The notes below the pieces were generated by a model, which was given only the letters and a program-made list of their open reading frames with translations, ran no database searches and was not told the origin of the DNA. DNA of 59,155 nt. Origin: Deltaproteobacteria bacterium (GTDB lineage Bacteria > Desulfobacterota > Syntrophia > Syntrophales > UBA2210). A program made the translations under genes and the position numbers. Shown here piece after piece: positions 13,893 to 59,155 of the stretch; within the stretch, counting starts at the first letter, position 1; each line of letters opens with the position of its first letter. The DNA is taken from contig JAFGTS010000001.1 of the NCBI GenBank assembly GCA_016933965.1, forward strand, positions 1 through 59,155. Reading direction: 5' to 3'.

Positions 13893-13921
13893 TTGATTTC
13901 TTTCAGGATTTTTATTAGCTA
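13893..13921 (+). promoter_or_regulatory. Promoter-like block of the paaK leader
   Basis: TTGATT at 13893-13898 starts a stretch of ~33 bases that closely matches the block upstream of the iorA leader (15408 on): TTGATT, then TTTCA, GATTT and ATTA in the same order and ending ACGG. With a 17-base spacer the -10 would be TAGCTA, a poor match; the neighbouring TATTAG is an alternative. The shared sequence, rather than the -10, supports a promoter. Confidence 0.45.
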
Positions 13922-13944
13922 AACGGCGAACAGAGAGTAGGGAC

Positions 13945-14025
13945 ATGAAACTGAGAGAAGATCTCTATTGCGTGCGCCGGTGGTGCCCGGTTCTCATATC
14001 GGGTGTGTTTACAGCCGCTGGATAA
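13945..14025 (+). CDS. Putative leader peptide of the paaK attenuator
   Basis: A 26-codon ORF (ATG 13945, TAA 14023-14025) beginning MKLREDLYCVRRWCP and ending GVFTAAG. It ends 80 bases before the ligase gene. Its single Trp codon, TGG at 13981-13983 followed by a Cys codon, lies 19 bases before the predicted antiterminator segment. That is nearly the same spacing as the three Trp codons of the iorA leader (22 bases). The upstream ribosome site (GAGAG, 7 bases before ATG) is weak. By analogy it senses charged tRNA-Trp; a Cys or mixed response cannot be excluded because there is only one Trp. Confidence 0.5.
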   Translation: MKLREDLYCVRRWCPVLISGVFTAAG

Positions 14026-14081
14026 CGCGTATCGATGGATGGGACACAGCCGTGAACAGACTCTGCTCACGGCTTTTTTTT
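14003..14081 (+). promoter_or_regulatory. Transcription attenuator upstream of paaK
   Basis: The terminator has arms AGCCGTGA (14048-14055) and TCACGGCT (14067-14074), with a 3-bp CAG/CTG extension inside the loop, and eight T at 14074-14081. A competing segment GTGTGTTTACAGC (14003-14015), overlapping the end of the leader ORF, can pair with 14049-14061 in 11 of 13 positions, including one G-U, which would break the terminator. This is the antiterminator/terminator switch of amino-acid attenuation. Pairing was worked out by eye, with no energy calculation. Confidence 0.6.
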
Positions 14082-14104
14082 GAGGAAGTAAGGGAGTATA
14101 ACTC

Positions 14105-15394
14105 ATGGTGAAATCATTCATGCCCGCCTTTAAAAATGAGGAAGAGCTCAGGTCACTCCAGCTCAAGGGGCTTCAATGGACCGTGGCCCACGCCTACCGG
14201 GGGAGCGATTTCTATCGCCGGCGCTTCGATGAGGCGGGAGTGCGGCCGGATGACATAACAAGTCTCGACGACCTGAAGCGATTGCCCTTTGTCACCGCCC
14301 AGGACCTGCAGGAACAGTACCCCTGGCCGCTCAGGTCGGTCCCCTTCGAGCAGATCGTGCGGCTTCACGCCTCATCAGGTACCACGGGAAAACGGAAAGT
14401 GCTGATCTACACGGCCCGGGATATCGATGACTGGGCCGACATGTTCGCCCGCTGTTATGAAATGGCGGGACTGTCACGGGATGACCGGATCCAGATCTGT
14501 GTCGGTTACGGCGTCTGGACCGCCGGCGCCGGCTTTCAGCTGGGATGCGAGCGATTCGGGGCCCTCGCCGTACCGGCCGGACCCGGGAACCTGGACATGC
14601 AGATGCAGTTCCTCGTGGATTTTCAGCCGACGGTCATCTGCTCCACGGCGTCCATGGGGCTTCTCATGGCGGAGGAGGTGAACAGGCGGGGACTTCGCGA
14701 CGCAGTCAACGTCAAAAAAGTTATCTTCGGTGCGGAACGGTCCAATGATGCCATGAGGAAGACCATTCTTGAACTGCTCGGGGCGGAACAGACCTTTGAT
14801 ATTCCCGGTCTCACTGAACTCTACGGCCCGGGGACGGGCCTTGATTGTGAACATCATACCGGTATCCATTACTGGGCGGACTATTACATCATGGAGCTCC
14901 TTGATCCGGACACCCTCGAGCCCGTGCCGGAAGGGGAGGTTGGTGAAATGGTGTATACAACACTTCGTAAGGAGGGTGCGCCGCTCATCCGCTATCGCTC
15001 CCGGGACCTGACGCGCCTCATTCCCGGAGACTGCCCCTGCGGATCGCCGCTGCCCCGCCATGACCGGATCCTCGGGCGTTCCGATGACATGTTCATCATC
15101 AGGGGAGTGAACATATATCCCGGTCATATCGACGAGATCCTTGCCCGGCAGAAGGGGGTCGGAAGCGAGTACCAGATCCATCTTGAGCGCGGCGACGACG
15201 GGAAGGATTATATGACGATCAGGGTGGAACGGGCCGGGGGAGTATCCCCCGGCGATGACGCAGGAACGGCGCGTGTCATAGAGAGAGAGATACAGAAAGG
15301 CATTCTCGTCAGCGGGACCGTTGAGATAGTTGATCATCACTCCCTGCCGAGGACGGAAAGGAAATCGAAACGGGTTTTCGATAACCGGGAATAA
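14105..15394 (+). CDS. Phenylacetate/aryl-acetate CoA ligase (PaaK-like)
   Basis: A 429-residue AMP-forming CoA ligase, the normal PaaK length. The P-loop is LHASSGTTGKRK (about 90-101), followed by a Zn/structural region and the adenylate motif LTELYGPGTG (about 237). The C-terminal domain has the hinge DRILGRSDDMFIIRGVNIYP (about 320-339) and ends with the LPRTERKSKRV lysine region. It activates phenylacetate, indoleacetate or related acids with ATP and CoA. The start has AAGGGAG 9 bases upstream. Its position behind a Trp-type attenuator and just before iorAB, which uses aryl-acetyl-CoA, suggests indoleacetate or several aryl acetates as substrates; the exact substrate cannot be read from sequence. 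Confidence 0.88.
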   Translation: MVKSFMPAFKNEEELRSLQLKGLQWTVAHAYRGSDFYRRRFDEAGVRPDDITSLDDLKRLPFVTAQDLQEQYPWPLRSVPFEQIVRLHASSGTTGKRKVLIYTARDIDDWADMFARCYEMAGLSRDDRIQICVGYGVWTAGAGFQLGCERFGALAVPAGPGNLDMQMQFLVDFQPTVICSTASMGLLMAEEVNRRGLRDAVNVKKVIFGAERSNDAMRKTILELLGAEQTFDIPGLTELYGPGTGLDCEHHTGIHYWADYYIMELLDPDTLEPVPEGEVGEMVYTTLRKEGAPLIRYRSRDLTRLIPGDCPCGSPLPRHDRILGRSDDMFIIRGVNIYPGHIDEILARQKGVGSEYQIHLERGDDGKDYMTIRVERAGGVSPGDDAGTARVIEREIQKGILVSGTVEIVDHHSLPRTERKSKRVFDNRE

Positions 15395-15407
15395 AGGAAA
15401 ATAATGC

Positions 15408-15436
15408 TTGATTCATTTCAAGATTTGCATTATTTA
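15408..15436 (+). promoter_or_regulatory. Promoter of the iorAB-TRAP leader
   Basis: TTGATT at 15408-15413 and TATTTA at 15431-15436 are 17 bases apart. Surrounding bases match the block at 13893-13925, implying that the two leaders arose by duplication. The predicted transcript starts about 25 bases before the leader ORF. Confidence 0.6.
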
Positions 15437-15468
15437 GTACGGACTTGCATGACACGAAGGGATACCTG

Positions 15469-15555
15469 ATGATACGCGACAGATTCCTGACAGGCTGGTG
15501 GTGGCGGTTTCCACATAGCGGGGAAGGGTCTGTGCACTGTTTGATAACAGGTTGA
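15469..15555 (+). CDS. Tryptophan-rich leader peptide of the iorA attenuator
   Basis: A 28-codon ORF (ATG 15469-15471, TGA 15553-15555) starting MIRDRFLTGWWWRFPH. Three consecutive TGG codons occupy 15496-15504. A good ribosome site, AAGGGA, lies 6 bases before the ATG. Three adjacent Trp codons in a short ORF directly before a terminator hairpin is the classical hallmark of a trp-type leader peptide. Ribosome stalling there would leave the segment at 15527-15537 free to form an antiterminator. Confidence 0.82.
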   Translation: MIRDRFLTGWWWRFPHSGEGSVHCLITG

Positions 15556-15612
15556 AGAGAAAAAGGAACACCGTGAAGGCCGTGGACAGACCAAGTCCAC
15601 GGCCTTTTTTTT
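15527..15612 (+). promoter_or_regulatory. Tryptophan attenuator controlling iorA-iorB-TRAP
   Basis: Terminator: AAGGCCGTGGAC (15576-15587), 7-base loop, GTCCACGGCCTT (15595-15606), T run 15605-15612; a perfect 12-bp stem. Antiterminator: GGTCTGTGCAC (15527-15537) pairs with GTGGACAGACC (15582-15592) at 10 of 11 positions and would take over the left terminator arm. A pause-type pairing is also possible between ACAGATTCC (15479-15487) and the GGAA plus TCTGT parts of 15522-15533, with a three-base bulge. When tRNA-Trp is charged the ribosome runs past the Trp codons and the terminator forms; when Trp is short, transcription continues into iorA. Worked out by eye. Confidence 0.8.
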
Positions 15613-15654
15613 GATGTGAGCGCTGTGTGACGGAAAAATCACGGGGAAATGAAC

Positions 15655-17487
15655 ATGGAACAGAGAATTCTTATGGGAAACGAGGCTATCGGCAGGGGGA
15701 TCATCGAGTCGGGATGCACGCTCGTTTCTTCCTATCCGGGGACCCCGGCGTCGGAGATCCTTGAGTCGGTCGCCGCCTTTGCCGCTGAAGATGCCGTTCC
15801 CCTGCATGTTGAGTGGTCGGTCAATGAAAAGGTCGCTTATGAAGTGGCCCTGGGAAACAGCTACACGGGAAAACGCTCGGCCGTGGCCATGAAGCAGGTG
15901 GGTCTCAACGTGGCCTCCGATCCTTTCATGCGCTCGGCCTACCTGGGGGTCAAGGGAGGTCTCGTGGTCGTGGTCGCCGATGACCCGGGCCCGCACAGTT
16001 CCCAGACGGAACAGGACAGCAGGTTCTTTGCCTGCTTCGCCCGCGTGCCCGTTTTCGATCCTTCGAATCCCACAGAAGCTAAGGATATGGTGGGGAAGGC
16101 CCTGGAGCTTTCCGAAGAATACGAAATACCCGTCATGTTGCGTCCCACGACGCGGGTCTGTCATGCGAGGCAGAACGTGGCGGTCCATGCTCCAAAGAGG
16201 CCCGATCGAAAGGCGCATTTTGAAAAGGACCCCGGGCGGTGGGTGGCGACGCCGCAGTTTCTGACGGGCCTTCACCGGGGCCTGAACGACAAGATCGACG
16301 CGATCGCCGGCCGGCGGGACTTTTTCCCCTCCCTCACCGGCGGCGACGGTTCACGGCCCCGCTCCTGCATCATATCCTCCGGTGTGGCCTATGCCAATGT
16401 GTACGAGCTCCTCAACGACCTGGGCATACTGGGAACGATCGACCTCTACAAGGTTGACGTACCATACCCGCTGAACAGGCATTTCATCGAGGAGATTAAT
16501 ACCCGGTATGAAGAGATCCTGGTGATCGAGGAGACCTACCCGACCATTGAAATGCAGTTGCAGAACGGCGCGGTCCGCGGCCGGCTTTCAAAGACCGTTC
16601 CCGACCAGGGTGAATTGATGCCCGAGGTCATTGAGAAGGTGTTGCGTTCGTTCCTGAACTTACCGGAGGAGAGGGGAGAGGAGAAACCGGCGGTCCGGGG
16701 CGTCAGGCCGACGCTTTGCCCGGGATGCCCGCACCGTGCCGCGTTTTACGCGATCCGGAAAACCTTTCCGAAGGGCATATTCCCCAGCGATATCGGCTGC
16801 TATACCTTGGGAATGAATTTCGGCGCCGTCGACACCTGCCACTGCATGGGGGCTTGCATCAGCCAGGGAGCGGGACTGTACCATGCATATGCGGCGGACG
16901 GGGATGAATATCCCACCATCGTGGTGACCATCGGCGATTCCACCTTCTTTCACGCGGGAATGCCGGCACTGGTGAACGCCGTGTTCACCGGCGCCCGGTT
17001 CATTCTTGTCATCCTCGATAATTCGACGACGGCCATGACGGGGAACCAGCCGACGCCGCAGGTGGGGGTCCTGGCGGACGGCCGCCGAGGGAATCCCGTT
17101 TATATTCCCGACCTCGTGACGGCGAGCGGCGTGCGGTTCCTTCGGGAATGCGATCCCTATGACGTCGAGAAATTCACCGAGCATCTGCGGGAAGCCGATG
17201 AATACTGCCGCGGTGCTCAGGGAAGCGTGGCAGTGATCATCTCCCGGCATCCCTGCATTATGGACCGTGAGGCCTTGAAAAGCCAGCGTCGGTTCCGGGT
17301 TGCCGTTACGGAAGAGTGCACGGGCTGTAAGGTCTGTATAACGCGGTTTGAATGTCCCGCCATCGTTTTTGACGAAGAAGCGGAGCGCGCTCATATCGAT
17401 CAGAACATCTGTATCGGATGCGGTGTCTGCGAGGTTGCCTGCCCTGTGGGTGCCATATCGGTGGAAGAAATGGGGGAAGATCGGTGA
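15655..17487 (+). CDS. iorA: Indolepyruvate:ferredoxin oxidoreductase, alpha subunit
   Basis: A 610-residue TPP- and iron-sulfur-containing subunit. With IorB it interconverts aryl-pyruvates (indole-, phenyl-, hydroxyphenylpyruvate) plus CoA and oxidised ferredoxin with aryl-acetyl-CoA, CO2 and reduced ferredoxin. The N-terminal pyrimidine-binding domain starts ILMGNEAIGRG. The central TPP domain shows TLCPGCPHRAAF (about 360), SDIGCYTLG and the GDS/N cofactor motif GDSTFFHAG with LDNSTTAMTG. The C-terminal ferredoxin part has CTGCKVC with a later C, and CIGCGVCEVACPVG. The ATG at 15655 is preferred over one 6 bases earlier because GGGGA lies 8 bases upstream. Controlled by the preceding Trp attenuator. 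Confidence 0.92.
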   Translation: MEQRILMGNEAIGRGIIESGCTLVSSYPGTPASEILESVAAFAAEDAVPLHVEWSVNEKVAYEVALGNSYTGKRSAVAMKQVGLNVASDPFMRSAYLGVKGGLVVVVADDPGPHSSQTEQDSRFFACFARVPVFDPSNPTEAKDMVGKALELSEEYEIPVMLRPTTRVCHARQNVAVHAPKRPDRKAHFEKDPGRWVATPQFLTGLHRGLNDKIDAIAGRRDFFPSLTGGDGSRPRSCIISSGVAYANVYELLNDLGILGTIDLYKVDVPYPLNRHFIEEINTRYEEILVIEETYPTIEMQLQNGAVRGRLSKTVPDQGELMPEVIEKVLRSFLNLPEERGEEKPAVRGVRPTLCPGCPHRAAFYAIRKTFPKGIFPSDIGCYTLGMNFGAVDTCHCMGACISQGAGLYHAYAADGDEYPTIVVTIGDSTFFHAGMPALVNAVFTGARFILVILDNSTTAMTGNQPTPQVGVLADGRRGNPVYIPDLVTASGVRFLRECDPYDVEKFTEHLREADEYCRGAQGSVAVIISRHPCIMDREALKSQRRFRVAVTEECTGCKVCITRFECPAIVFDEEAERAHIDQNICIGCGVCEVACPVGAISVEEMGEDR

Positions 17488-17984
17488 AACAGCAGATCAT
17501 CATCAGCGGAAAAGGCGGCCAGGGGGTTCTCTTTTTGACGAGGTTGCTCGCGGAAGCGGGGATGGTGGCGGGACTTCCGGTCCTGACGTCGGAGACCCAC
17601 GGCATGGCGATGCGGGGTGGCACGGTTATTTCCCACGTCAAGGTCGGTTCCTTCATGAGCCCGCTGATCCGAAAGGGCGGTGCCGACGCGGGACTGTTCC
17701 TTTCCCATTCGAATATCGCGATCCATGGAGATTATGTGGGACCGGGTGGCCGGTGCGTGGTCAATACCGACCGCGCGGGCGACTTTCTCGGGGTCGATGC
17801 GACGGAATATGCCCGGGAACTCGGCTCGTTGCTCATGACGAACCTGGTCCTGCTGGGGTATGCGATCACAAAGGGCGTCCTCTTCTGCGATGCTTCCCTG
17901 ATGAGGACGGTTATTGAACAAACTTCTCCCCCCCGCAAGCGGGAGCTCAATCTGCGGGGATTTGAGAGGGGATTACATCTGTAA
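17484..17984 (+). CDS. iorB: Indolepyruvate:ferredoxin oxidoreductase, beta subunit
   Basis: A 166-residue gamma-type 2-oxoacid:ferredoxin oxidoreductase domain, the partner of IorA. Recognisable parts are IIISGKGGQGVLFLTRLLAE at the start, TSETHGMAMRGGTVISHVKV, and TNLVLLGYAITKG near the end. It starts at a GTG that overlaps the iorA stop as GTGA, indicating translational coupling; GGGGGAAG is the ribosome site. Length is slightly under the usual ~190 residues but no conserved block seems missing. It is followed 11 bases later by dctP. Confidence 0.92.
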   Translation: MKQQIIISGKGGQGVLFLTRLLAEAGMVAGLPVLTSETHGMAMRGGTVISHVKVGSFMSPLIRKGGADAGLFLSHSNIAIHGDYVGPGGRCVVNTDRAGDFLGVDATEYARELGSLLMTNLVLLGYAITKGVLFCDASLMRTVIEQTSPPRKRELNLRGFERGLHL

Positions 17985-17995
17985 GGAGGGTATCC

Positions 17996-19024
17996 ATGAA
18001 ACAAGGAGGGTTGTTAATCAAGGTTGCCGGAATCGTGGGGGTGATCATCCTGGGGCTGGCGTTCATCGCACCGCCGGCCGTTGCGGGACCCGTCACCCTT
18101 TCCTACGCCAATTTCCCCCCGGCGTCCACCTTTCCCTGTGTCCAGATGGAACGGTGGAAGGAAGAGGTGGAAAAGCGGACGGGTGGGGCCGTGGCGATCA
18201 ACACCTTTCCGGGAGGCACGCTCCTGGGAGCGAAGAACATGCTGGACGGCGTCATCGGCGGCCAGGCCGATATCGGCTGTTTCGCCATGTCCTATCATCC
18301 GGGCCGCTTTCCCATCATCGAGGCGATCGACCTGCCTCTGGGATGGCCGAACGCAACCGTGGCGAGCCTGTCGCTGATGGACCTGTATGAAAAATACCGG
18401 CCCGAATCTTTCGCGAAGGTCAAGGTACTGACCCTGTTCACCTGCCCCCCGGCCAACATCATGTCCATCGAGCCGGTCCGGACCCTTGACGATCTGAAGG
18501 GGATGGAGATCAGGGCCGCCGGAACGGGAGTGAAGGTTCTCGAGCTTCTCGGGGCGAGCCCCATTGGCATGCCGCAGTCGGATGTTCCCGATGCGCTCCA
18601 CAAGAAGGTCATCGAAGGAATGGCCTCCTCCCTGGAAGTGATGAAGGATTTCAACTATGCCGAATACTGCCGCTATATCACCATGACCAATCTCCAGGTG
18701 GTGACCTTCGCGGTGGTCATGAATCTCGATCGCTGGGACTCATTGCCGGCAGATGTGCAGAAGGTTCTCGACGACCTGGCCCGTGAACAGGCGCAGTGGA
18801 CCGGACAATATGTGGACGGGCACGTCAACGAGGCCGTCGCGTGGTCGAAGAAGACCTACAATGTCGAGATGATCGAACTTTCCACCGATGACAGGGCGCG
18901 CATGAAGAAAATGCTTGAGCCGCTGACCGAGGGGTATGTGGGACGAGTGGGAGACCAGGTTCCCGCCAGAACGATCATTGATGACGTGCTTGAGTTCAAG
19001 GAAAAATATTCAAAACTGTATTAG
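17996..19024 (+). CDS. TRAP transporter periplasmic binding protein (DctP family)
   Basis: A 342-residue exported binding protein. A signal peptide ends near PPAVAG (about 30), and the mature domain starts VTLSYANFPPASTFP. The key family element is the Arg in LKGMEIRAAGTG (about residue 172), which binds the substrate carboxylate, followed by LLGASPIGMP. The C-terminal helices end DDVLEFKEKYSKLY. A strong AAGGAGG precedes the ATG. It follows iorB by 11 bases and belongs to the attenuated operon, so its ligand is likely an aryl acid connected to IorAB, such as indoleacetate or indolepyruvate. This is inference from context, as TRAP ligands cannot be read directly from sequence. Confidence 0.9.
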   Translation: MKQGGLLIKVAGIVGVIILGLAFIAPPAVAGPVTLSYANFPPASTFPCVQMERWKEEVEKRTGGAVAINTFPGGTLLGAKNMLDGVIGGQADIGCFAMSYHPGRFPIIEAIDLPLGWPNATVASLSLMDLYEKYRPESFAKVKVLTLFTCPPANIMSIEPVRTLDDLKGMEIRAAGTGVKVLELLGASPIGMPQSDVPDALHKKVIEGMASSLEVMKDFNYAEYCRYITMTNLQVVTFAVVMNLDRWDSLPADVQKVLDDLAREQAQWTGQYVDGHVNEAVAWSKKTYNVEMIELSTDDRARMKKMLEPLTEGYVGRVGDQVPARTIIDDVLEFKEKYSKLY

Positions 19025-19045
19025 ACGGTTGTGCAAAGGGAGATT

Positions 19046-19549
19046 ATGGAACGGCTCATCGCATTACTTGACCGGGTCAGCACGTTGATAAACCGGGTCC
19101 TGACCGCCATCGCCGGCACGGTTCTCGTGCTCATGGTGGTTCTCGGCTCGGCAAATGTCGCGCTTCGCGGATTCGGCCTCCCCATCCAGGGGACCTTTGA
19201 AATGATGGGGTTTTTCGGCGCCATAACGGCGGCCTTCGCGCTCGGAAGGACCCAGATCAAGCGGGAGCATATCGCTGTTGATGTGGTGATACAATTCTTC
19301 CCGTCCCCGGTCCGGCGTTTTCTCAGCGGTGTCAGTTACGTGATCGGCGCCGTGTTCTTCGCCCTGGCGGCGTGGCAGACGGCCCTGTGGGGAACGAATC
19401 TCTGGCGGGTCAATGAATTGTCCGAAACGCTTCGGATCATCTATTTCCCCTTCGTGTACTGTGTATCACTGGGCTGCCTGGTGCTGTCTTTGGTCCTTTT
19501 TATCGACATGCTCAAGGTTCTGAACGGAACCGGGGAGGTTCACTCATGA
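19046..19549 (+). CDS. TRAP transporter small membrane subunit (DctQ)
   Basis: A 167-residue membrane protein with four predicted helices: about 15-37, 50-68, 90-110 and 130-155. The family fingerprint is visible in ANVALRGFGLPIQGTFEMMG and FALGRTQIKREHIAVDVV. It forms the membrane complex with DctM and DctP and uses an ion gradient. The ATG at 19046 is chosen over a GTG at 19031 because AGGGAG lies just before it, although the spacing is short. The gene ends in an ATGA overlap with dctM. Confidence 0.88.
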   Translation: MERLIALLDRVSTLINRVLTAIAGTVLVLMVVLGSANVALRGFGLPIQGTFEMMGFFGAITAAFALGRTQIKREHIAVDVVIQFFPSPVRRFLSGVSYVIGAVFFALAAWQTALWGTNLWRVNELSETLRIIYFPFVYCVSLGCLVLSLVLFIDMLKVLNGTGEVHS

Positions 19550-20850
19550 CGCTTACCGCCATCGGTCTTGTGGGTGTTGCCGTTCTCCTGTTCCTGCTTC
19601 TCTTTCTCGGTATGCCCGTGGGGTTTACCATGGCCGTCGTCGGTTTCGGCGGTATCTGTTACGTGATCTCCTTCAAGGCAGCTCTGGGAATGGTGGGGAC
19701 CGAGCTGTGGAGCACCTTTTCCTCCTACGGTCTGACCATGGTGCCCCTCTTCGTGTTCATGGGACAGATCTGTTTTTACTCGGGGCTTAACCGGCGGTTG
19801 TTCAAGGCGACCCACACGGTCACCGGCCATGTCCGGGGCGGTCTGGCAATGGCCACCGTCTTCGCCTGCGCGGGGTTCGCCGCTATCTGCGGATCCAACA
19901 CGGCCACGGCGGCGACGATGACCACCGTGTCACTTCCCGAGATGAAAAAATACCATTATGACCCCGCGCTTTCCGTGGGGTCCATAGCATGCGGGTCAAC
20001 GCTGGGAGTCGTCATTCCACCCAGCGTGGTCCTTATTCTGGTTGGACTCTACACGGGACAGTCCATCAGCAAGCTTTTTTACGGCGGCATCCTGGCGGGG
20101 ATCGTCCTTGCCATCCTCTTTATGATCACCATTGCCATCCTCTGCTGGATAAACCCGGAATGGAGCCCCCTGGGAAAACGGACGTCGCTGAAGGAAAAGA
20201 TCCGTTCCATGCCCGGCTTTTTTGAGGCCGTGACCCTTTTCGCTCTTGTCATGGGCGGGCTCTATGCCGGTGTTTTCACCCCCACCGAGGCCGGCGCCGT
20301 CGGGACCTTTCTCGCCCTTGCCATGAGCCTTGTCAGAAGGACCCTGACCTGGCAGGGGTTCACCGCCGCCGTCACCGACACGCTGCAGGTGTCCTGCATG
20401 GTCTTCGTGATCATCGCCGGCGCCGTCATGTTCAGCCGTTTTCTCGCCCTGACGCGCATTCCCTTTGAAATGGCGGACTGGGTCGCGGCGCTGCCCTTTG
20501 CGCCGGTGACGATACTGAGCGTCATATTCATCATATATATCATCGGCGGGGCCCTCATGGACGCCCTCGCCCTCCTGCTGATAACGATACCCATCTTTTT
20601 CCCCGTTGCCCTGAAACTGGGGTATGACCCGCTCTGGTTCGGTGTGATGATCACGATCATTACGACCCTGGGCGCCGTTACCCCTCCCGTGGGGGCCACG
20701 ACGTACGTGGTGGCCGGAATGGCGAAAGACGTGGGACTCGGCGGGGTCTTCCGGGGGGTCCTTTATTTTCTGCCGGCCTATATCCTCTGTATCATCCTGC
20801 TCATGGCCGTTCCCCAGATCATCACCTTCCTTCCCGGCCTGATCCGGTAG
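19546..20850 (+). CDS. TRAP transporter large membrane subunit (DctM)
   Basis: A 434-residue permease of the DctM family, with about a dozen hydrophobic segments. Recognisable motifs are LLFLGMPVGFTMAVVG near the N-terminus, CGSNTATAATMTTVSLPEM, STLGVVIPPSVVLILVG, FTPTEAGAVGTFLALAMS, and GAVTPPVGATTYVVAGMAK near the end. It carries the ion-coupled substrate pathway. Its start overlaps the dctQ stop. Together with dctP and dctQ it makes a complete three-gene TRAP system located directly behind iorAB. Confidence 0.93.
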   Translation: MTLTAIGLVGVAVLLFLLLFLGMPVGFTMAVVGFGGICYVISFKAALGMVGTELWSTFSSYGLTMVPLFVFMGQICFYSGLNRRLFKATHTVTGHVRGGLAMATVFACAGFAAICGSNTATAATMTTVSLPEMKKYHYDPALSVGSIACGSTLGVVIPPSVVLILVGLYTGQSISKLFYGGILAGIVLAILFMITIAILCWINPEWSPLGKRTSLKEKIRSMPGFFEAVTLFALVMGGLYAGVFTPTEAGAVGTFLALAMSLVRRTLTWQGFTAAVTDTLQVSCMVFVIIAGAVMFSRFLALTRIPFEMADWVAALPFAPVTILSVIFIIYIIGGALMDALALLLITIPIFFPVALKLGYDPLWFGVMITIITTLGAVTPPVGATTYVVAGMAKDVGLGGVFRGVLYFLPAYILCIILLMAVPQIITFLPGLIR

Positions 20851-58768: not shown

Positions 58769-58884
<116 letters not shown>

Positions 58885-58959
58885 ATCGATATTAAAAAGT
58901 TGTGACAACCATATATCTACGTTGTTTCCGCAGGCTGCGCCATATTATGAGAACAAATT

Positions 58960-59155
<196 letters not shown>

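Follow-up and report, generated by a model that had tools for sequence, protein, structure and literature searches.

The locus analysed here lies in a window of 59,155 nucleotides (contig JAFGTS010000001.1; assembly GCA_016933965.1, 97%-complete) from an uncultured anaerobic Deltaproteobacteria bacterium (Syntrophales; UBA2210). On the plus strand of this window, we found the elements leader 1, paaK, leader 2, iorA, iorB, dctP, dctQ and dctM in this order (Table 1). The initial annotation had placed two leaders, a ligase, IorAB and TRAP genes together at this locus, and every part was recovered where it had been reported. The promoter-like stretches of leaders 1 and 2 are alike, with TTGATTYMTTTCARGATTT common to both. 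Neither of them was returned by a sigma-70 consensus scan, and these repeats are therefore given solely as read from the sequence.

Table 1. Predicted features of the paaK-iorAB-dctPQM locus, in positions of the window
Feature	Position	Strand	Remarks
Leader 1 promoter-like stretch	13893..13920	+	TTGATT-16-TTAGCT, read from sequence, putative
Leader ORF 1, MKLREDLYCVRRWCPVLISGVFTAAG*	13945..14025	+	Single Trp codon at 13981-13983
Leader 1 intrinsic terminator	14048..14082	+	z -3.0; possible competing antiterminator helix
paaK, PaaK-type AMP-forming aryl-acetate--CoA ligase, 429 aa	14105..15394	+	TIGR02155, Pfam and PDB matches
Leader 2 promoter-like stretch	15408..15436	+	TTGATT-17-TATTTA, read from sequence, putative
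Leader ORF 2, MIRDRFLTGWWWRFPHSGEGSVHCLITG*	15469..15555	+	WWW codons at 15496-15504
Leader 2 antiterminator segment GGGTCTGTGCAC	15526..15537	+	Pairs with GTGGACAGACC (15582-15592) inside the terminator
Leader 2 intrinsic terminator	15575..15612	+	z -6.6 (terminator alone); 13 pairs plus T run
iorA, indolepyruvate:ferredoxin oxidoreductase-type alpha subunit, 610 aa	15655..17487	+	TIGR03336
iorB, beta subunit, 166 aa	17484..17984	+	PF01558, 85 bits; start overlaps iorA end
dctP, TRAP solute-binding protein	17996..19024	+	Related to Dde_0634
dctQ, TRAP small permease	about 19046..19549	+	Pfam/NCBIfam
dctM, TRAP large permease	19546..20850	+	Pfam/NCBIfam

The product of paaK carries the Pfam domains AMP-binding and AMP-binding_C_2, and its PDB relatives 4r1l and 2y27 are phenylacetate-CoA ligases. 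Since its TIGR02155 score (397 bits) was under the equivalog cut-off of 646 bits, we named it a PaaK-like aryl-acid ligase with a putative substrate. IorA, which contains the domains POR_N, TPP_enzyme_C and Fer4, retained the conserved cysteines and the residues of the TPP region, and together with the POR-type IorB (PF01558) it displayed the domain composition expected of IorAB. The TIGR03336 score of IorA (643.1 bits) was just under the cut-off of 650.9, and IorB, a protein shorter than the models, reached 95.4 bits for TIGR03334 against a cut-off of 205.8, for which reason the pair is labelled 'IOR-type' and not as a certified equivalog. In one study, sequence motifs failed to predict the use of indolepyruvate (PMC13290082) and, according to a passage in another, IORs take phenyl- and hydroxyphenylpyruvate as well (PMC13285125). 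No aminotransferase gene was found within the operon.

As for the transporter, alignments showed DctP to be about 50-54% identical to the solved Desulfovibrio proteins 4n6d and 4pgn/4nap, and a structure comparison with Dde_0634-type structures gave Z values of 41-43. The next structural neighbours included many aromatic-acid binders, and Dde_0634 itself has been reported to bind indole-3-acetate (PMC9543091, PMC9973260). DctP is thus close in both sequence and fold to the Dde_0634 group of TRAP proteins (4nap, 4pgn, 4pgp and the relative 4n6d), and its ligand is most likely indole-3-acetate. In other genomes, relatives of DctP adjoin genes for a molybdenum hydroxylase, a CoA mutase, a family III CoA-transferase and an acyl-CoA dehydrogenase, which we take to be the set for anaerobic indoleacetate degradation.

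The leader preceding iorA combines a run of Trp codons with an intrinsic terminator and an alternative antiterminator helix. Leader 2 stood out clearly from chance: its 145 nt folded at z = -3.7 and its terminator at z = -6.6. The antiterminator duplex of -22.5 kcal/mol was equalled by only 2 of 200 shuffles. In almost every related Syntrophales genome with the module that was checked, iorA was preceded by a WWW or WWWW leader with a terminator. This also answered a question raised by the initial annotation, namely whether the paaK-iorAB-dctPQM linkage occurs in other genomes: it recurs in related ones, with the Trp leader kept. When 700 genes from this and related loci were scanned, a WWW leader with a strong terminator was encountered in 10 cases, nine of which belonged to the module, and the unrelated background amounted to one match in about 690; the scan undercounts iorA leaders, as the mechanically set gene start sometimes lies upstream of the leader. 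Antiterminator pairing was assessed in 19 leaders, 18 from iorA and one from paaK (that of locus L002, picked automatically instead of the iorA leader). In 14 of these 19, it was equalled by at most 7 of 200 dinucleotide shuffles. The antiterminator was placed 17-24 nt past the Trp run, as attenuation needs, and in the relatives its position was kept while its sequence was altered, both pairing strands changing together. No leader family was matched in an Rfam search, and no Phe or Tyr leaders were found near the two other IorA paralogs. The same three elements characterize the leaders of trp operons (mechanism as in PMC1183508), but the attenuators described here precede the putative salvage genes iorAB-dctPQM and TrpB2. 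The iorA leader is apparently a ribosome-mediated attenuator that would respond to Trp.

For leader 1, the predicted antiterminator duplex had an energy of -18.6 kcal/mol, a figure without a shuffle control. Its counterparts in relatives read MIVRYDAYWWW* in L002 (WWW) and MAKIVRYDPYWWRLK... in L003 (WW). In the present genome the Trp response of leader 1 is less certain because it contains one Trp codon only. The initial view that both leaders are Trp-responsive consequently holds up better for leader 2, with its WWW codons, terminator and antiterminator, than for leader 1.

Among 51 TGGTGGTGG sites genome-wide, only two were located in a short open reading frame before a strong terminator, one belonging to iorA and the other to TrpB2. 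TrpB2 passed the cut-offs of both TIGR01415 (666.2 bits; cut-off 518.9) and NF009057 (744 bits; cut-off 366), and it was the only tryptophan-synthase-like gene found in this genome. This type of protein has been described as an indole-scavenging tryptophan synthase beta. Of 20 TrpB2 loci from module genomes, 16 had a WW or WWW leader ahead of the gene. In 6 of 16 TrpB2 leaders the antiterminator was equalled by at most 9 of 200 shuffles. In the genome under study, both the TrpB2 leader and its terminator were present, and the antiterminator pairing was not significant, being equalled by 150 of 200 shuffles. Judged from their sequences, the iorA and TrpB2 units form a two-member WWW-leader regulon.

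The initial annotation had also asked whether the genome has a complete trpEDCFBA set. It does not: TrpA, TrpC, TrpD, TrpE and canonical TrpB were not found in this 97%-complete assembly, while all trp families searched gave positives in 14 control genomes. Chorismate synthase was present. Two sister genomes, G097 and G078, likewise gave no hits for TrpC, TrpD and canonical TrpB, the families tested there. Across 149 genomes of the order, TrpC was missing in 7 of 23 module genomes as compared to 31 of 126 module-free genomes. Accordingly, there was no enrichment, and we rejected the idea that the module is an order-wide substitute for the trp pathway; the module is found in TrpC-bearing genomes as well and so does not strictly replace that pathway. 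G015, which lacks TrpC, was rejected as a trp-less genome, since TrpD is present.

These observations can be combined into a model. When charged tRNA-Trp is scarce, the ribosome would stall at the WWW codons of the leader, leaving a segment free to bind the 5′ half of the terminator, so that the polymerase could enter iorAB-dctPQM. Read-through into paaK could follow the same logic at leader 1. The TRAP transporter would then import an indolic acid, most likely indole-3-acetate, which PaaK would turn into its CoA ester at the expense of ATP. IorAB, operating in the reductive direction, would convert the CoA ester, CO2 and reduced ferredoxin to indole-3-pyruvate, and a general aminotransferase presumably encoded elsewhere would yield Trp. 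From the second leader-controlled unit, TrpB2 would make Trp from scavenged indole and serine. We consider it probable that the locus is a salvage operon induced by tryptophan starvation that would rebuild Trp from imported indoleacetate. That it serves salvage and not catabolism had been suggested at the outset, and the suggestion gained support from the predicted attenuator, the recurring gene linkage, the trp genes missing from the assembly, the TrpB2 leader and the kinship of DctP with a reported indole-3-acetate binder.

The ligase resembles phenylacetate-CoA ligases, and Tyr and Trp codons stand side by side in leader 1 of L002 and L003. Conceivably, therefore, the operon could salvage aryl acetates in general, for Phe, Tyr and Trp alike, and Trp would serve as no more than the regulatory signal. 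We regard this as unlikely, since the WWW leaders are without comparable runs of Phe or Tyr codons, the only other gene with a WWW leader in the genome is the Trp-specific TrpB2, and DctP lies near a reported indole-3-acetate binder. An operon that shuts down at plentiful Trp, as the attenuator predicts, would be even harder to reconcile with a catabolic module, in which aryl acetates or aryl pyruvates are imported, or aromatic amino acids oxidized, for energy. Such modules do have parallels: TRAP, CoA ligase and IorAB are linked to phenylacetate/phenylpyruvate catabolism in Desulfococcus multivorans (PMC5109826), OFORs are catabolic in gut acetogens (PMC13290082), and relatives of dctP and paaK were found in degradation-like clusters. 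However, an AMP-forming ligase consumes ATP for the CoA ester, the operon is without downstream degradation genes, and the other gene behind such a leader is TrpB2, which makes a catabolic role here very improbable. It is also barely plausible that the transporter takes up indolepyruvate or Trp itself and that ligase and IOR handle side products only. Although there are also Dde_0634 structures with indole pyruvate and with D-tryptophan as ligands, this explanation would leave paaK and IorAB without a purpose in a conserved and regulated linkage.

The reductive use of an IOR is itself not a new proposal. In methanogens, an aryl-acetate route with reversed IOR has been put forward for the synthesis of aromatic amino acids; in contrast to that route, the present genes are bacterial, share their locus with an AMP-forming ligase and with a TRAP importer, and stand behind predicted Trp attenuators. 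A likeness is also found in Bacteroides, where IOR is co-located with an AMP-forming arylacetate-CoA ligase and, on the argument that AMP-forming ligases favour CoA-ester formation, a biosynthetic role has been proposed (PMC13285125). The passage concerned names neither a TRAP importer nor a Trp leader, whereas the leaders described here point to Trp shortage. The newness of a complete uptake-to-keto-acid module in a bacterium, as initially proposed, is weakened by the Bacteroides proposal. No description of a Trp-controlled IOR/TRAP operon was found in the literature searched, which covered few subscription journals.

Genomes without trp genes are usually scored as Trp auxotrophs that need the imported amino acid. 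If the module works as proposed, the host would make Trp from indole-3-acetate or indole, and auxotrophy predictions for syntrophic communities would need correction. Indole-3-acetate, the plant hormone auxin, would be a nutrient instead of a signal. A broader scenario, to which we give slightly less than even credence, is that this free-living syntroph gave up de novo Trp synthesis and lives on the indole-3-acetate and indole that its neighbours release, via a Trp-attenuated regulon of two units, one for indole-3-acetate import and reductive carboxylation and the other for TrpB2. In that scenario, Trp supply would add a concealed cross-feeding link to methanogenic communities. Furthermore, the conserved Trp leader makes the old question on the direction of IorAB testable from genomes: its presence suggests synthesis, and its absence leaves catabolism open.

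The ligase, IorAB and the TRAP importer were all found together behind the leaders, as the initial annotation had placed them, in the order leader 1, paaK, leader 2, iorA, iorB, dctP, dctQ and dctM. Family searches identified the paaK product as a PaaK-like AMP-forming ligase, the iorA product as an alpha subunit of the IOR type that carries TPP and ferredoxin domains, the iorB product as an IOR beta subunit, and the dctP, dctQ and dctM products as the three TRAP components. Since IorA scored slightly below the NCBIfam equivalog cut-off, and IorB and PaaK well below, family membership does not give the exact substrates. The nearest named relatives belong to Syntrophales MAGs, such as Smithella, which suggests that the organism belongs to this order. 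IorB is shorter than most NCBIfam beta-subunit models (170-203 positions), though the operon is otherwise conserved. One genome, G107, carries two copies of the module's IorA type, on contigs 78 and 95 (67% and 64% identity).

Coordinates of features in the window and of loci in other genomes
Feature	Location	Strand	Remark
Module, leader 1 to dctM	window 13893-20850	+	
iorB	window 17484-17984	+	166 aa
5S rRNA and 23S rRNA 3' end	window 58769-59155	-	at contig end
livH-iorA-iorB-livM-livG-livF-paaK	L026:9115-16156		
iorA-dctPQM	L242:4890-10161		also iorB
iorA-dctPQM	L244:4512-11569		

The proposed Trp-responsive control is supported by the sequence of leader 2, whose peptide MIRDRFLTGWWWRFPHSGEGSVHCLITG (stop) is followed after ~20 nt by a terminator of 13 pairs and a T run, but leader 1, MKLREDLYCVRRWCPVLISGVFTAAG (stop), contains just a single Trp codon, also with a terminator downstream. 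The arrangement recurs in relatives, where a WWW or WWWW leader and a strong terminator precede iorA in nearly all genomes with upstream sequence. In a mechanical scan of 700 genes, ten had such a leader; eight of these were iorA genes and one was paaK, while the tenth was unrelated. In leaders of the iorA and paaK type, the terminator 5' half and loop pair with a segment beginning 17-24 nt past the Trp run. For 14 of the 19 leaders, no more than 7 of 200 dinucleotide shuffles gave an antiterminator pairing as good, and both sides of the pairing covary between clades (for example GGTCTGTTCAC/GTGAACAGA, GGAAAACTGTCC/GGACAATTTTC and GGTGCGGGTC/GGGCGCACA). The Trp-run leader, competing pairing and terminator thus share the anatomy of ribosome-mediated attenuation, in which amino acid scarcity leads to read-through (PMC1183508).

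The module's own genome has 51 TGGTGGTGG sites, and just two of them fall within a short ORF followed by a strong terminator. One is in the iorA leader, the other in MKRALIHRLYWWWQVI (stop), which precedes a TrpB-like gene on contig 43. This gene encodes TrpB2 (TIGR01415, 666 bits), a type described as indole-scavenging (PMC2700814). Antiterminator pairing in this leader was not significant in the dinucleotide-shuffle test. Among module genomes, 16 of 20 TrpB2 loci have a WW or WWW leader with a terminator (in one, ~1.3 kb upstream), and the four without include one partial gene.

A complete trp pathway was not found in the own genome (2.85 Mb, 96.7% complete): no member of the TrpA, TrpC, TrpD and TrpE families was detected there while control genomes were positive, and TrpB2 was the sole TrpB-like gene, with no canonical TrpB. 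Chorismate synthase was found. One gap in the assembly would be enough to conceal an entire trp operon, but TrpC, TrpD and canonical TrpB were also not found in the closest module-bearing relatives, G097 (95% complete) and G078 (86%). The module's IorA type occurs in 23 of 149 genomes of the order; TrpC is kept in 16 of these and missing in seven, so the module can coexist with trp genes, and a similar share of genomes without it (31 of 126) lack TrpC, so this loss also occurs without the module. No PF00425 member was found in the own genome, hence no PabB either to supply p-aminobenzoate for folate.

Homologous parts work in catabolism in other organisms (PMC5109826, PMC13290082), which speaks against a biosynthetic direction here. 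Synthesis is indicated, however, both by the way the attenuators would act and by the ligase being AMP-forming. The ligase argument has already been applied to the IOR of Bacteroides (PMC13285125). Outside the order, iorAB genes of more distant relatives (L020-L034, for example L020 and L026) can lie with paaK and a branched-chain-type ABC transporter and have no WWW leader, so the same role is not to be assumed there; the arrangement suggests that another importer may serve the same enzymes. Two further genomes from beyond the order (L242, L244) show linkage of dctPQM with an iorA gene (51-52% identity), again without a WW leader.

Salvage of indole-3-acetate (IAA) under Trp starvation is thus supported by several independent sequence lines, with activity, substrate and Trp response being predicted. 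Rumen bacteria convert IAA to tryptophan, according to older literature, and in other organisms such a pathway has been proposed before. The apparent novelty lies in its packaging with a dedicated importer and in TrpB2 being controlled in parallel, under Trp attenuators, where no trp pathway was detected in the genome.

Counted from alignments, DctP shares 53% identity with 4n6d and 50.5% with 4pgn, and its model matched 4n6d (Z 43) and 4nap (Z 41). The latter is Dde_0634, a Desulfovibrio solute-binding protein reported to bind IAA in two papers (PMC9543091, PMC9973260). Among the structural matches that come next, many are binders of aromatic acids such as coumarate, cinnamate, ferulate and 4-hydroxyphenylacetate. 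Elsewhere in the phylum (L247, L248 and L243), relatives of the TRAP system lie in a candidate anaerobic indoleacetate degradation cluster. At L247, and in part at L248, DctP relatives neighbour a molybdenum hydroxylase, a methylmalonyl-CoA-mutase-type protein, a family III CoA-transferase, ETF and an acyl-CoA dehydrogenase, a gene set that matches the degradation pathway reportedly described by Ebenau-Jehle in 2012.
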